Source of the DNA: Paracoccaceae bacterium
GTDB lineage: Bacteria > Pseudomonadota > Alphaproteobacteria > Rhodobacterales > Rhodobacteraceae
Assembly: GCA_007695345.1 (NCBI GenBank)
Contig: REDZ01000060.1
Location: 1-34,574 of the forward strand
Reading direction: 5' to 3'
DNA length: 34,574 nucleotides
Shown: piece after piece, positions 19,102 to 24,066 of the stretch
How the letters are laid out: each line of letters opens with the position of its first letter
How positions within the stretch are numbered: position 1 is the stretch's first letter
The notes under the pieces: model-generated
Databases searched by the model: none
Told to the model about the DNA's origin: nothing
What the model saw: only the letters and a program-made list of their open reading frames with translations
Position numbers and translations under genes: made by a program

Positions 19102-19701
19102 TCAGTCGTCGGCAGCGGTCTTGTACCGCTCGAACAGCTTGGCCTGCGCCATGAAGAACAGAAACAGCGCGAAGGGCAGGACGAAGGTGCGGAAATTCAC
19201 CCAGGCATCGGTGGACATGCTGCGCCACACGATCTCATTCGCGCAGGCCAGTGCGGCAAACATCAGCGCCAGCCGCCGCGTCAGAACGATCCAGCCTTCA
19301 TGCGTGATGGGCAGGGCCCCTTCCATCACCAGTTCCAGCCAGCTTTGTCCACGCGCCAGCCCGATGAACAGCAGTGCTGCAAAGATCGAATAGACCGCTG
19401 TCGGCTTCATCTTGAAGAAGCGTTCGTCATTCAGCCACACGGTCAGCCCGCCGAACAGCACCACCATCACCAGCGTGACAAGCTGCAACCGGCTCAGCCG
19501 GCCCGAGAGCTTCCATAACACGAATGTCGCCACGGCCATCAGCGGGATGAACCCCGCCGTCAGCAGGATGAAGGCGTCATATTCCGTGCCACCGATGGTA
19601 TAGACCTGTCCACGTGTGCTGATATATCCGAGAAAAAACAGCAACACGGGGCCAAGTTCCAGCCCGATCTTGACTGCGGGCGAGACCTGTCGTTCCAGCA
19701 T
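19102..19701 (-). CDS. yciB: Septation protein A / inner membrane-spanning protein YciB
   Basis: The 199-residue polytopic membrane protein has family landmarks in KIGLELGPVLLFFLGY at the start, MKPTAVYSIFAALLFIGL in the middle, and NEIVWRSMSTDAWVNFR followed by LPFALFLFFMAQ at the end. YciB (also called IspZ or septation protein A) supports envelope integrity and cell elongation or division in enterobacteria; its exact activity is unknown. The start at 19701 is preferred because AAGGA lies about 7 nt upstream and homology begins there; an open upstream extension overlaps the preceding gene. The 34-nt gap after the 979-residue gene suggests co-transcription with it. Confidence 0.92.
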   Translation of the reverse strand: MLERQVSPAVKIGLELGPVLLFFLGYISTRGQVYTIGGTEYDAFILLTAGFIPLMAVATFVLWKLSGRLSRLQLVTLVMVVLFGGLTVWLNDERFFKMKPTAVYSIFAALLFIGLARGQSWLELVMEGALPITHEGWIVLTRRLALMFAALACANEIVWRSMSTDAWVNFRTFVLPFALFLFFMAQAKLFERYKTAADD

Positions 19702-19735: not shown

Positions 19736-22675
19736 TCATGAATCGATGCGCAGCACGTGATCGCGCCCGCGCCGGACATAGCGCAATTCATTTTCACCAA
19801 TCGCTGTGACCTGCCCACCATCCAGCGATGCGCCGACCTGCACCATCTCCACGCGCCCGTTCGACAGTCGCACCAAGGCGCGGCGGTTGCTGGACGTGCC
19901 CATCACGCCGATCAGATTGACCTCGCGCAGGTTGATCGCGCCGGTTTGCGTGGCCTCGCGCGCGACCGAGGCGGAAGTCGGGATTGCGGGGGCGGCGCTT
20001 GCAGCGCTGGCGGTTTGCTGCGGTTGCGGCGCTGCCGGTTGCTGCGGTGCAGCCTGTTGTGCGGTCTGGCTGCGCGCCTGCTCTGCTTCGATCGTGCGCT
20101 GAACGATGGCCGAGAACTGGCCGGGTCGCGACCCTGGCCGCAGTGAGGCGGCGACCGCCATCTCCGAGGCATCGAACTCCTCGGGCGCGGGGGTCAGGGC
20201 CGCTTCAACCACAGCCTCGGGGCGCGTGACAGGGCGCAGGGCGGTCAGGGCGATCCCGCCGGGCGGCGGGGTCAGGCCGGCCTGATCGCCGTCATCGGCC
20301 TCGGCTTCAGCTTCGGGCAGGGCCGCATCGTCCGGGGGGGCGTCGGTTTCGGGTTCTGGTTGCGCAGCAGCTTCGGGCGCCAGCCCCTCGGGGCGCTGGG
20401 GCGGAATGGATGCCGGGGTGCCGTCGCTGACCTCAATCTCCAGCAGGCTTTCATCCAGCAATTCGGCAGCGGCCTCGGCTGCTTGTGCCTCTGCCGCAGC
20501 GGCGGTTTCTTCCTCGGCCAGGGCTGCGGCTTGGGCGGCCTGCGCCTCTGCTTCCGCTGCAGCCTCTGCCTCGGCTATGGCGGCGGCTTCGGCTTCAGCC
20601 TCGGCGGCTGCGGCAGCCTCTGCCGCAGCGGCGGCTTCGGCCTCAAGCTCGGGGGTCAGCGCTTCTGGCCGCGTGGGCGGAGTGGAGGGCGGGGTGCCGG
20701 ACGTAACGGCAATTTCCAGCTCTGCTTCTTCGGCGGGCAGGCCCGCCTCCTCCTCGGCGATCACCGCATCATCGGTCACGTCATCCTCGACCGGGGCAGC
20801 ATCCAGCGCGGCCAGTTCCGACCGGGTGGGGGGCAGCGGATCGGCCCCGAACGGTGAAGGGGCCGCAGGGGTTTCCGGCAGGGGGCTGGCCTCTTGCAGC
20901 GGCAGCAGAGCGACCGAGCGGAGCCCTGCCACACGGCCTGCGGGCATGTCGGGCTGGCTGGCAGGCGCGGCGTCACCTGCCCCGGTATCCTGCGCCTCGC
21001 CTGTCTCTGCGGGTTCGGGGGCATCAGCCGGGGGTTGCTGGGCCGCATCTTCCAGCCCAAGCGCGGCCTCGATCTCTGCAGCATCGGCCTCATCGGGCTC
21101 GACGGTTGCCTGACCCTGTGTATCCTCGGCCGGGGCAGTCTCGGCAGGCAGGGCCGCGTCATCGGGGGCGACGATCTCATCCCCTGGCAGGGCCGCAATC
21201 TCTGGCGGCGGGCTTTGGGGCGTGCTGGTAAAGAATACCGCCCAGATCGTGACCGCCCCCAGCAAAAGCGCGACCCCACCGGCGACCAGCACCCCACGTC
21301 GCATGGCCGTGCCGCCGGGCTGATCCTGATTGCGCGCGCCGAAAATCGTCATGCGCTTGGCTTCGTCATCCGATGCGCCTGTCGCGACGCGCGCATGCAG
21401 CGTCTCCAGCGGGTCCTTGCGCTTGGCCGGGTCAGGCGCTTTTGCGGCGGGGGATGCCTTGGCGGGGGCGGGTTTTGCAGTCGGTGCCTTTGCCTCCGGG
21501 GTTCTGGCTTCGGGCGCCTTGGCCTTTTCCGGCTTGCCTGCCGGTGCGGCGGGCTTGGGCGGGACCGGGGTTCTGCCATCTTTCGTATCTGCAGCGACAG
21601 GTTTGGTGCTTTGCGTGCGCCCCACACCACTGACCTGTTGCGCCGCAGCGCCCAGCCGCGCGCGCAGCGCTGTCGCCACCCCGGCAGAGGCTGCACTGGC
21701 CGCGGCCTTGCCGGTCGCTGGCTTGGCTGCCGGCTCTGGCGTTTTTGCTGCGGGTTTGTCGGGCGTGCCGGGCTTGCGGCGCGAGGAAAAGGTCAGCGGG
21801 TTGTCGTCATCCGGCTTGGCGGTCGTCTCGGGTTTGGCGGTCTTGCCCTTGCTGCGCAGAGACAGTAGCCGCGTCAGACCCAGTGACTCGCTTGCCTTGG
21901 GCGCGCCTTGTTCGCCCTCTGCCGAGGCGGGCTTGGCCTCTGGCGCGTCCGGTCTGGCCGCTTCGGTCTTGTCTGCAGCGGCTGCTGGCGTCGGTGTGGC
22001 AGCTTTGCCTTTTGGCGCAGGGGCGTCTGCCTGTGCAGGCTTGGCCGGTGTGTCGGCAGGTTTTGCGGTCCCTGACCCGGCGGCCCCTGGGGCCGCGGCG
22101 GGGGCCATCTCCGGGTCCGGCAACTCGGCGATACCGGTCTCGCGCAGGATTTCCGGCTCGCGCTCGATCTTCTCGGGGTCGCCCACAATCTTGCGGGCCA
22201 GTCGCGTCGGGCCGAAAAAGGGCTCTCGGTTGAAGCGGCCATTGGCAGGCGCGGCGGTTGCGCTGACCGGGTTGAACCCGTAGCCCTGGGCGAAATCTTC
22301 AGCCTCGACAATGGTTTCGCGCGCAACCACGGCCACATGCACCTGCGCGCCATTGATCGTCCAGTCGAAATCCAGCTCTTCAACCGGGTAGGGCGTGCGC
22401 CCGGCCAGCTTGGCGCGGATCTCGGCCTCTCTCGCGTTGCGGTCGCGCGCCGCAACCTCCAGGTCGCAATAGAGGATCTGTTCATCCGGCACGACCAGCT
22501 TGGTCGTGATGCCATCAGGGGCCAGCGCCTGCGCGACCTTGCTCAGATCGCGCATCTGCGCATCCATATCCGGGGCGTCAGGGGCGACGGCCCCGACACG
22601 CAACCACCCCGAGCGGCCCCGCTGCCAGAGCGTGATGCCGTCCGTGGTCATGCCGAGAGCGAAATTCGGTTTCAT
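19736..22675 (-). CDS. Large bitopic protein with PilM/GspL-like N-terminus and PilP/GspC-like C-terminus
   Basis: The product is 979 residues. Residues 1-143 resemble the first subdomain of PilM/GspL: LVVPDEQILYCDLEVAARDR (60-79), then IRAKLAGRTPYPVEELDFDW (86-105) and VHVAVVARETI (112-122). Residues 190-440 are a Pro/Ala/Lys-rich linker. A membrane helix lies at 461-482 (GVLVAGGVALLLGAVTIWAV and following), preceded by Arg. Residues 483-910 are Ala/Pro/Glu-rich, including an Ala-Glu coil at about 677-740 flanked by two copies of a GTPxSxPPxRPE unit. The C-terminal 915-979 (LREVNLIGVMGTSSNRRALV, then VQVGASLDGGQVTAIGENEL) fits the PilP/GspC homology region. Likely cytoplasmic N-terminus and periplasmic C-terminus. 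No pilus or type II secretion genes are seen nearby. Relatives have been mislabelled as translation initiation factor 2. Function unknown. Confidence 0.8.
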   Translation of the reverse strand: MKPNFALGMTTDGITLWQRGRSGWLRVGAVAPDAPDMDAQMRDLSKVAQALAPDGITTKLVVPDEQILYCDLEVAARDRNAREAEIRAKLAGRTPYPVEELDFDWTINGAQVHVAVVARETIVEAEDFAQGYGFNPVSATAAPANGRFNREPFFGPTRLARKIVGDPEKIEREPEILRETGIAELPDPEMAPAAAPGAAGSGTAKPADTPAKPAQADAPAPKGKAATPTPAAAADKTEAARPDAPEAKPASAEGEQGAPKASESLGLTRLLSLRSKGKTAKPETTAKPDDDNPLTFSSRRKPGTPDKPAAKTPEPAAKPATGKAAASAASAGVATALRARLGAAAQQVSGVGRTQSTKPVAADTKDGRTPVPPKPAAPAGKPEKAKAPEARTPEAKAPTAKPAPAKASPAAKAPDPAKRKDPLETLHARVATGASDDEAKRMTIFGARNQDQPGGTAMRRGVLVAGGVALLLGAVTIWAVFFTSTPQSPPPEIAALPGDEIVAPDDAALPAETAPAEDTQGQATVEPDEADAAEIEAALGLEDAAQQPPADAPEPAETGEAQDTGAGDAAPASQPDMPAGRVAGLRSVALLPLQEASPLPETPAAPSPFGADPLPPTRSELAALDAAPVEDDVTDDAVIAEEEAGLPAEEAELEIAVTSGTPPSTPPTRPEALTPELEAEAAAAAEAAAAAEAEAEAAAIAEAEAAAEAEAQAAQAAALAEEETAAAAEAQAAEAAAELLDESLLEIEVSDGTPASIPPQRPEGLAPEAAAQPEPETDAPPDDAALPEAEAEADDGDQAGLTPPPGGIALTALRPVTRPEAVVEAALTPAPEEFDASEMAVAASLRPGSRPGQFSAIVQRTIEAEQARSQTAQQAAPQQPAAPQPQQTASAASAAPAIPTSASVAREATQTGAINLREVNLIGVMGTSSNRRALVRLSNGRVEMVQVGASLDGGQVTAIGENELRYVRRGRDHVLRIDS
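20456..20647 (-). repeat. Low-complexity Ala/Glu-coding tract inside the 979-residue gene
   Basis: About 64 codons are nearly all Ala or Glu (AEAEAEAAAIAEAEAAAEAE is a sample). They encode a long, probably continuous helix in the periplasmic half. The near-repetitive GCN/GAN codons could allow length change by recombination or slippage. Confidence 0.65.
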
Positions 22676-22779: not shown

Positions 22780-24066
22780 TCATGCGCCCGCCGCGGTCAG
22801 GGCCTGATCCAGGTCGGCGATGATGTCATCGGCATTTTCAAGCCCGATGGACAGCCGCACCACATCGGGGGCGGCACCGGCGGCGATCTGCTGTTCTTCA
22901 GTCAGTTGCCGATGCGTGGTCGATGCCGAATGGATGATCAGCGAGCGCGTATCGCCCAGATTGGCCACATGGCTGAGCAGATTGACCGAATCGATCAGTT
23001 TGACGCAAGCCTCGTACCCGGCCTTGAGCGAGAAGGTGAAAAGCGAAGACGCCCCTTTCGGGCAGATCTGCGCCATCCGGTGATGATAGGGCGAAGAGGG
23101 CAGACCGGCATAGGTGACATAGGCCACGCGGGGATCGCGCTCCAGCCATTCGGCAACCTTGACGGCATTGGCGCAGTGCTTGTCCATGCGCAGGCTGAGC
23201 GTCTCGATCCCCATCAGCGTGTAATGCGCGGCCTGGGGGTTCAGCGTCATGCCCAGATCGCGCAGGCCAATGGCGATGGAGTTGAAGGTAAAGGCCAGCG
23301 GTCCGAATGTCTCATGAAATTTCAGACCGTGATAGGCGGGTTCGGGCTCTGACATGGCGGGGAATTTGCCATTGGACCAGTTGAACGTACCCGAATCGAC
23401 GATCACCCCGCCGGTCACGGTGCCATTGCCAGTCAGGTATTTGGTCAGCGAGTGCACCACCAGCGTGGCGCCATGTTCAATGGGGCGGCACAGATAGGGC
23501 GTGGCGGTGGTATTATCCACGATGAGCGGAATGCCGTTGCGATCCGCAATTGCGGCCAGCGCGTCCAGATCGGTGATATACCCGCCCGGATTGGCGATGG
23601 ATTCGCAGAATATGGCGCGGGTGTTTTCGTCAATCGCGGCCTCGACCGCATCCAGATCGTCAGTATCGACAAATCTGGCCTGCCAGCCGAAGCGCTTGAT
23701 CGTCTGGCTGAACTGCGTGACCGTGCCGCCGTATAGTCGATTGGATGACACGATATTCAGCCCCGGCCCCATCAGCGGAAACAGCGCCATGATCTGCGCG
23801 CCATGCCCTGACGAACAACAGACAGCACCTGCACCCCCTTCAAGCGCGGCCATGCGTTCCTGCAGCGCGGCCACAGTGGGGTTGGTCAGGCGCGAATAGA
23901 TATAGCCCACTTCCTGCAGGTTGAAGAGCGCTGCGGCATGATCTGCGTCGCGGAACACATAGGATGTCGTCTGATAGATCGGCACCTGCCGGGCGCCCGT
24001 CGCCGGGTCCGGACGCGCGCCCGCATGGATCTGAAGCGTCTCGAAATCGGGTGTCTTGTCAGCCAT
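22780..24066 (-). CDS. metY: O-acetylhomoserine sulfhydrylase (aminocarboxypropyltransferase)
   Basis: This 428-residue fold-type I PLP enzyme of the Cys/Met metabolism family makes homocysteine from O-acetylhomoserine and sulfide. The PLP lysine is K209 in VVHSLTKYLTGNG. PLP contacts include YSRLTNPTVAALQERMAALE (57-76), SSGHGAQIMA (85-94), SNRLYGGT (108-115) and DNTTATPYLC (184-193). The length (about 430) and the insert containing NWSNGKFPAMSEPEPAYHGL favour MetY over the shorter MetB or MetZ (about 390). The start ATG has GCAGGAGG about 5 nt upstream. I looked for a SAM-II type riboswitch before it and saw none. With cysK it covers the two direct sulfhydrylation routes. Confidence 0.93.
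   Translation of the reverse strand: MADKTPDFETLQIHAGARPDPATGARQVPIYQTTSYVFRDADHAAALFNLQEVGYIYSRLTNPTVAALQERMAALEGGAGAVCCSSGHGAQIMALFPLMGPGLNIVSSNRLYGGTVTQFSQTIKRFGWQARFVDTDDLDAVEAAIDENTRAIFCESIANPGGYITDLDALAAIADRNGIPLIVDNTTATPYLCRPIEHGATLVVHSLTKYLTGNGTVTGGVIVDSGTFNWSNGKFPAMSEPEPAYHGLKFHETFGPLAFTFNSIAIGLRDLGMTLNPQAAHYTLMGIETLSLRMDKHCANAVKVAEWLERDPRVAYVTYAGLPSSPYHHRMAQICPKGASSLFTFSLKAGYEACVKLIDSVNLLSHVANLGDTRSLIIHSASTTHRQLTEEQQIAAGAAPDVVRLSIGLENADDIIADLDQALTAAGA

Follow-up and report, generated by a model that had tools for sequence, protein, structure and literature searches.

The protein encoded at positions 19,736–22,675 (minus strand) of REDZ01000060.1, a contig of a Paracoccaceae bacterium (GCA_007695345.1), combines in one chain of 979 residues a predicted cytoplasmic head of the GspL/PilM kind and a C-terminal homology region (HR) domain of the GspC/PilP/GspB kind. 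We think it somewhat probable that this fusion protein is a stand-alone trans-envelope connector built from two platform subunits of type II secretion. Positions 1 to 34,574 of the contig form the window, that is, the whole stretch of DNA analysed. In this report, we document the domains, predicted topology and distribution of the fusion protein, its independence of secretin and assembly ATPase, and the gene order in four type II operons of the class. Each end was known before, as were the HR scaffolds GspB/OutB beside GspC; the fusion, its near-universal spread in one family and its many hosts without secretin are what sets it apart. Our literature search, to which subscription papers were mostly closed, retrieved no paper that describes the fusion in its title or the start of its abstract.

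Both ends resemble secretion platform subunits

The initial annotation, made from the letters of the window, had proposed a single polypeptide with a PilM/GspL-like start and a PilP/GspC-like end, and had staked this reading in advance on profile and structure searches of the two ends. Both ends were matched by sequence profile and by fold. The single chain is real as well: 41 further loci encode relatives of 793–1381 amino acids (aa) with both ends within one frame, giving, together with the window protein, a set of 42 proteins from which three partial relatives were excluded.

As a single sequence, the head matched only PilM in NCBIfam (E 5.6e-4) and nothing in Pfam. Among 31 aligned members, the window protein included, the NCBIfam families pilM and gspL matched 13 and 10 members, respectively, at E ≤ 0.1, every other family matching one member only, and Pfam PilM_2 was weak (3 of 31 members, best E 0.003). 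Profile–profile comparison of the head alignment returned PilM at E 6e-8 and GspL at E 4e-9, against 0.16 and 0.32 in a reversed-alignment control, and the alignment ended at column 171 of the 361 columns of PilM. The best structural rows for the head model (mean predicted local distance difference test score, pLDDT, 94.3) were GspL and PilM, at 12–13% identity; this comparison, like that of the tail, was a second look at the top 1000 PDB chains. Sequence searches of the PDB with single sequences and profiles gave chance rows only and no credible match. The head covers no more than roughly half of PilM, its first half, and by score lies nearer to GspL, which refines an assignment on which NCBIfam, profile–profile comparison and fold agree. 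In the head alignment W24, T94 and P95 are invariant, and P63, Q66, Y96, L101 and D104 nearly so.

The C-terminal assignment held equally. Pfam PilP matched the last 130 residues at E 1e-5, and 23 of the 31 members at E ≤ 0.01; in bits, PF04351 scored 26.0 on this segment against a cut-off of 25.6, and 21.3 on the whole protein. In the model, pLDDT over the final 60 residues is 88–95 by blocks of ten, and the first 11 structural rows for the tail model, in agreement with Pfam, are GspC, PilP, LspC, PulC, GspB, pilus/secretin complex entries and one Dot/Icm chain. Invariant residues are present in the HR domain, as in the head, and the tail is, in these comparisons, equally near to GspC and PilP.

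A reciprocal search covered 656 open reading frames (ORFs) of 22 loci, 20 of them picked around pilM or gspL. The top 15 ORFs for the head profile were PilM (11) or GspL (4), with E values of 5e-5 to 0.31, 13 of them ≤ 0.1, and the first five for the tail profile, at E 4e-5 to 0.12, occupied the pilP position of pilM operons. These scores are individually weak; the information lies in their order.

Free HR-domain ORFs of about 82–123 aa were also observed (L097–L106, for instance L097:7838–8104 and L105:7472–7738), by eye without membrane helix or export signal; those read adjoin purF, a short-chain dehydrogenase or surE, likewise named by eye. A hand count gave a second HR match in 43 of the 198 genomes surveyed below, and all 10 loci fetched show a free HR ORF. 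Pfam PilP matches two of three such ORFs scanned.

Topology and linkers

A single membrane helix had been placed mid-chain at the first reading (Table 1), and the relatives bear this out. In all 42 proteins the most hydrophobic segment is found in the middle of the chain, and in 40 no other segment exceeds the hydrophobicity threshold (L071 has two segments above it and L076 three). Charge is more positive on the N side of the helix than on the C side in all 42 (mean net +2.4 before, −1.3 after); the N-terminus is therefore predicted to be cytoplasmic and the C-terminus periplasmic. No conserved block was seen in the cytoplasmic linker beyond about residue 160 among the 24 aligned rows viewed.

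The periplasmic part measures 389–653 residues (median 450). Its RP motifs recur far above expectation, RP-x(1–3)-RP occurring on average 1.93 times per protein versus 0.06 in shuffles (42 proteins), and a pattern of the RPxxRP kind precedes the HR domain in 36 of 42. These motifs are possible binding points. An Ala/Glu-rich stretch in the arm of the window protein (20,441–20,653, residues ~675–745) resembles a long helix, which we take to be comparable to that of TolA.

Distribution and independence of secretin and ATPase

Across 198 Rhodobacteraceae genomes, nearly one per genus, the HR domain was found in 188 and the head in 185; by hand count from two tables, 194 have either end and 179 both. 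The head gave one match in 183 of the 185 genomes and two in G136 and G165. An order-wide draw gave the HR domain in 101 of 101 genomes, all recorded as Rhodobacteraceae. Among 192 genomes drawn class-wide, seven matched the HR profile, three of these being Rhodobacteraceae; among 385, ten matched the head profile, of which five were Rhodobacteraceae with open frames of 843–982 aa. The five head matches outside the family were four GspL-looking frames of 373–392 aa and a marginal match in a TPR-like ORF of G305, which was rejected. In those draws, therefore, the fusion was seen in Rhodobacteraceae only.

Unlike a part of a type II secretion system or type IV pilus, which co-occurs with secretin and the assembly ATPase, the fusion protein is also found where neither was matched. 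Secretin was present in 176 of the 198 genomes (about 470–500 aa in most of those listed) and not found in 22, of which two were read off as G176 and G181. An HR match is nevertheless present in 19 of these 22, together with a head match in 17 of the 19, and conservation is strong in several. Among the 19 carriers, the T2SSE ATPase family gave no match at E ≤ 0.001 in 14, three scoring above the cut-off and two weakly. GspD N0 had no match in these 14 carriers, its sole match being in the window's own genome. Both ends are present in 12 of the 14, and in at least seven of the 12 (G148, G117, G056, G167, G176, G181 and G078) the two matches lie in open frames of equal length. One of them, G148 (locus L062), has the complete architecture in 873 aa, and the 12 include G045, a genome in one contig and 100% complete. 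Conversely, neither end was matched in G162 and G195, which have secretin. These observations show that the fusion protein is independent of secretin and ATPase.

MshEN-domain proteins were considered as partners of the head and rejected, being matched in only 7 of 15 genomes, one of the seven below cut-off. At L196 and L199, both from secretin-less genomes, the MshEN domain forms the N-terminal part of an ORF that resembles a glycosyltransferase and adjoins a carA-like ORF, both named by eye.

Origin of the fusion

In Xps-type type II operons of four other members of the class (L210, L212, L213 and L217), gspL is matched by the head profile at E 8e-5 to 1e-11, and a gspC lying downstream in the same orientation is matched by the tail profile at E 8e-5 to 2e-7. 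NCBIfam recognises the GspM encoded between gspL and gspC in L210 and L212. It also recognises GspC in L210 and L213, with a weak match in L217. The GspL proteins of L210, L212 and L213 score as PilM. The GspC of L212 and the GspL of L217 have no NCBIfam match, and their names rest on position and profiles. The GspL of L212 tracks the head profile nearly from its start (positions 6–143). The L-M-C order also occurs in L112, the sole Rhodobacteraceae type II operon examined, with genes named by eye. No fusion intermediate was found.

We infer that, in an ancestor of the Rhodobacteraceae, gspL and gspC fused and gspM was lost. In such a model, gspL, gspM and gspC would have been adjacent in an ancestral Xps-type operon; gspM and the periplasmic half of GspL would have been lost and the remainder fused into one chain, leaving the cytoplasmic head of GspL, one membrane helix and the HR domain of GspC, with long disordered linkers between them. 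Released from secretion, the fusion would then have become near-universal in the family.

Gene neighbourhood

A survey of gene neighbourhoods, suggested by the initial annotation, covered 29 loci with 2101 ORFs of ≥80 aa. Type II queries (from L111, L112, L210 and L213) and pilM–Q (from L178) matched no ORF of these neighbourhoods other than two of the focal proteins at E ≤ 1e-3, and in every locus the focal protein was the single ORF found by the head profile and by the tail profile. Together with the persistence of the gene in genomes where secretin and ATPase were not found, this upholds its description as stand-alone. The remark that no pilus or secretion genes are in view is correct for the neighbourhood but not for the genome, which has on another contig (C109, locus L111) a small gspC-D-E-F-like cluster, and two secretin matches in all. 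No match to gspL, gspM or a pseudopilin was found in the 17.8 kb fetched there. After the cluster come two ORFs resembling subtilases, of which Pfam confirmed one.

Within three genes of the focal gene, the 29 loci have a Cys/Met metabolism pyridoxal phosphate (PLP) enzyme (21 loci), SIMPL (DUF541; 12), a cation antiporter (11), yciB (10) and hydroxyphenylpyruvate dioxygenase (9), each family name being assigned from one relative. The position beside yciB thus applies to the window and its close relatives but not to the other loci, and a link to septation was dropped on this account. At L062–L077, the SIMPL gene adjoins the focal gene upstream and is divergent from it (12 of 29 loci, ORF starts less than 200 nt apart), and a promoter region common to both genes is possible.

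Table 1. Parts of the fusion protein and adjoining genes in the window
Feature	Position	Strand	Residues	Basis or remark
Cytoplasmic head, GspL/PilM-like, covering roughly the N-terminal half of the actin-like fold	22241..22675	-	1-145	Alignments, profiles, model
Cytoplasmic linker, Ala/Pro/Lys-rich, low complexity	21296..22240	-	146-460	Composition
Membrane helix, N side predicted inside	21230..21295	-	461-482	Hydrophobicity, flanking charge
Periplasmic arm, acidic, Ala/Pro, repeated RP motifs	19928..21229	-	483-916	PPxRP, (L/F)RPxxRP
Last RPxxRP of the arm	20123..20140	-	846-851	
HR domain, GspC/PilP/GspB type, with six beta strands; forms the C-terminus	19739..19927	-	917-979	Alignment, Pfam, model
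Cys/Met metabolism PLP enzyme, apparently an O-acetylhomoserine sulfhydrylase	22780..24066	-		Commonest neighbour; family named on L055 relative
yciB (Pfam IspA, intracellular septation protein A)	19102..19701	-		34 nt from focal stop codon to likely yciB start

Discussion

The fusion protein resembles several known envelope proteins in part. The cytoplasmic domain of GspL, which meets the ATPase GspE, is actin-like, as is the head of the fusion protein; for the periplasmic ferredoxin-like domain of GspL, sequence-only scans of the whole protein with Pfam and NCBIfam (E ≤ 10) gave no GspL C-terminal family match. Unlike GspL/XpsL, the fusion protein instead has an HR domain, sits outside a gsp operon and occurs where no GspE-type ATPase was found. 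It shares the periplasmic HR domain with GspC/XpsC (formerly XpsN), but GspC has a short cytoplasmic N-terminus (helix at 5–39 in the five GspC proteins of L112, L210, L212, L213 and L217, against ~461 here), and the fusion protein has no PDZ family match, carries its HR domain at the very C-terminus and occurs where secretin was not found. PilM has a complete actin-like fold, whereas the fusion protein has a low-complexity linker in place of the second half. In type IVa pili, PilM and PilP are separate proteins, PilP being a lipoprotein according to the titles of structure entries, and the pilMNOPQ operon context is absent for the fusion gene in the 29 neighbourhoods (queries PilM–Q of L178). 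TolA and TonB likewise have one helix, a long extended periplasmic arm and a small C-terminal domain, but their C-terminal folds differ and they lack a large cytoplasmic head. GspB/OutB appears in the available part of PMC9239104 as a trans-envelope scaffold of variable length and composition that sits in the inner membrane and has its HR domain in the periplasm; no GspL-like head is described in that part, and GspB/OutB serves secretin, whereas many carriers of the fusion protein have none.

In Xanthomonas, according to the available part of PMC11981180, XpsL binds the ATPase, the HR domain of XpsC is predicted to meet the secretin, a disordered linker joins this domain to the platform, and XpsC, L and M belong to one complex. 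There the two ends are separate proteins, whereas the fusion protein has both in one chain. The trans-envelope reading of the initial annotation is thus supported by the two ends and by the stand-alone occurrence; the connecting function itself, both partners and a load-bearing role are what we infer. The head would dock a cytoplasmic partner, the arm of ~430 residues would cross the cell wall, and the HR domain would hold a periplasmic or outer-membrane partner other than secretin. With a periplasm of roughly 30 nm (available part of PMC9239104), an arm of 389–653 residues, if extended, would far exceed the length required. Our data suggest that the grips of the secretion platform are re-used for another purpose in the cell envelope. 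Tentatively, and with close to an even chance of being right, we propose that Rhodobacteraceae fused two type II platform ends into a tether with a housekeeping role, which links the cytoplasm to the outer envelope and whose HR domain binds something other than secretin. We know of no earlier HR domain with a non-secretin partner. With respect to the CenKR envelope regulon, the focal gene is not identifiable in the available part of PMC9275681.

Other explanations deserve consideration. If the fusion protein were an extra platform or scaffold part for a Tad pilus or for patchily distributed type II systems, in the manner of GspB/OutB, the machine-less genomes would reflect recent loss. Secretin in 176 of 198 genomes, the gspC-D-E-F-like cluster and two secretin matches in the window's own genome, and the binding of secretin N0 domains reported for the HR domains of GspB, GspC and PilP (available part of PMC9239104) fit this idea, which we still consider unlikely: the fusion is kept in 19 of the 22 secretin-less genomes, 14 of them without ATPase and several with strong conservation, the secretin-bearing G162 and G195 gave neither end, and the focal gene does not stand beside such a cluster in the 29 loci. 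About as improbable, in our estimate, is a signalling or positional protein, whose HR domain would sense the state of the periplasm and whose head would relay it to a cytoplasmic regulator or to division or polar machinery. Pfam and NCBIfam scans of the whole protein show no enzyme or DNA-binding domain beyond chance rows, the named recurrent neighbours include no regulatory gene save a small Lrp-like regulator seen by eye in some loci, and the septation gene yciB adjoins only in close relatives.

If the protein were the decaying remnant of a type II system that has been lost, it would look like fused gspL and gspC pieces and would be absent or weak in a few genomes, as is the case here, but near-universal presence at about one genome per genus and invariant residues in both domains make decay very improbable. 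Finally, chance likeness in a low-complexity protein is scarcely credible. PDB profile searches did return only chance rows, Pfam scores lie near or below cut-offs, and the head profile matches synthetic TPR proteins at E values down to 3e-7, a likeness rejected as a sum over repeats, each below 9 bits and none passing alone; against chance, the reversed-alignment control, two family libraries, the reciprocal search and two structural comparisons concur.

Several observations nevertheless count against a secretion-derived, stand-alone connector. Apart from the RP motifs, the linkers are without conservation. In the reciprocal search, five of nine GspL loci fell outside the first 15 for the head profile, and GspC of the gammaproteobacterial type was not retrieved by the tail profile among the 656 ORFs of 22 loci. 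Since secretin occurs in most hosts, a secretin partner is possible there. Among secretin-less genomes, a frame shared by both ends is not visible among the matches listed for G045, head and HR matches are weak in G094, G136 and G172, and G090 and G164 have no head match. The evidence on origin is partial: the eight class loci were fetched because each matched one profile, and four show both ends, L211 having the head only, where the contig ends, and L214, L215 and L216 the tail only; the GspL of L112 gave no match to the head profile.

If the fusion protein is the connector that we propose, it would, to our knowledge, add a trans-envelope link of a new kind to Tol-Pal and TonB. Near-universal in a widespread family, the protein offers an example of secretion components put to other use. 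It also provides a direct test of what the GspL head and the HR domain do with no ATPase or secretin to hold, and the partner of the HR domain, if found, may reveal a new part of the Rhodobacteraceae envelope.
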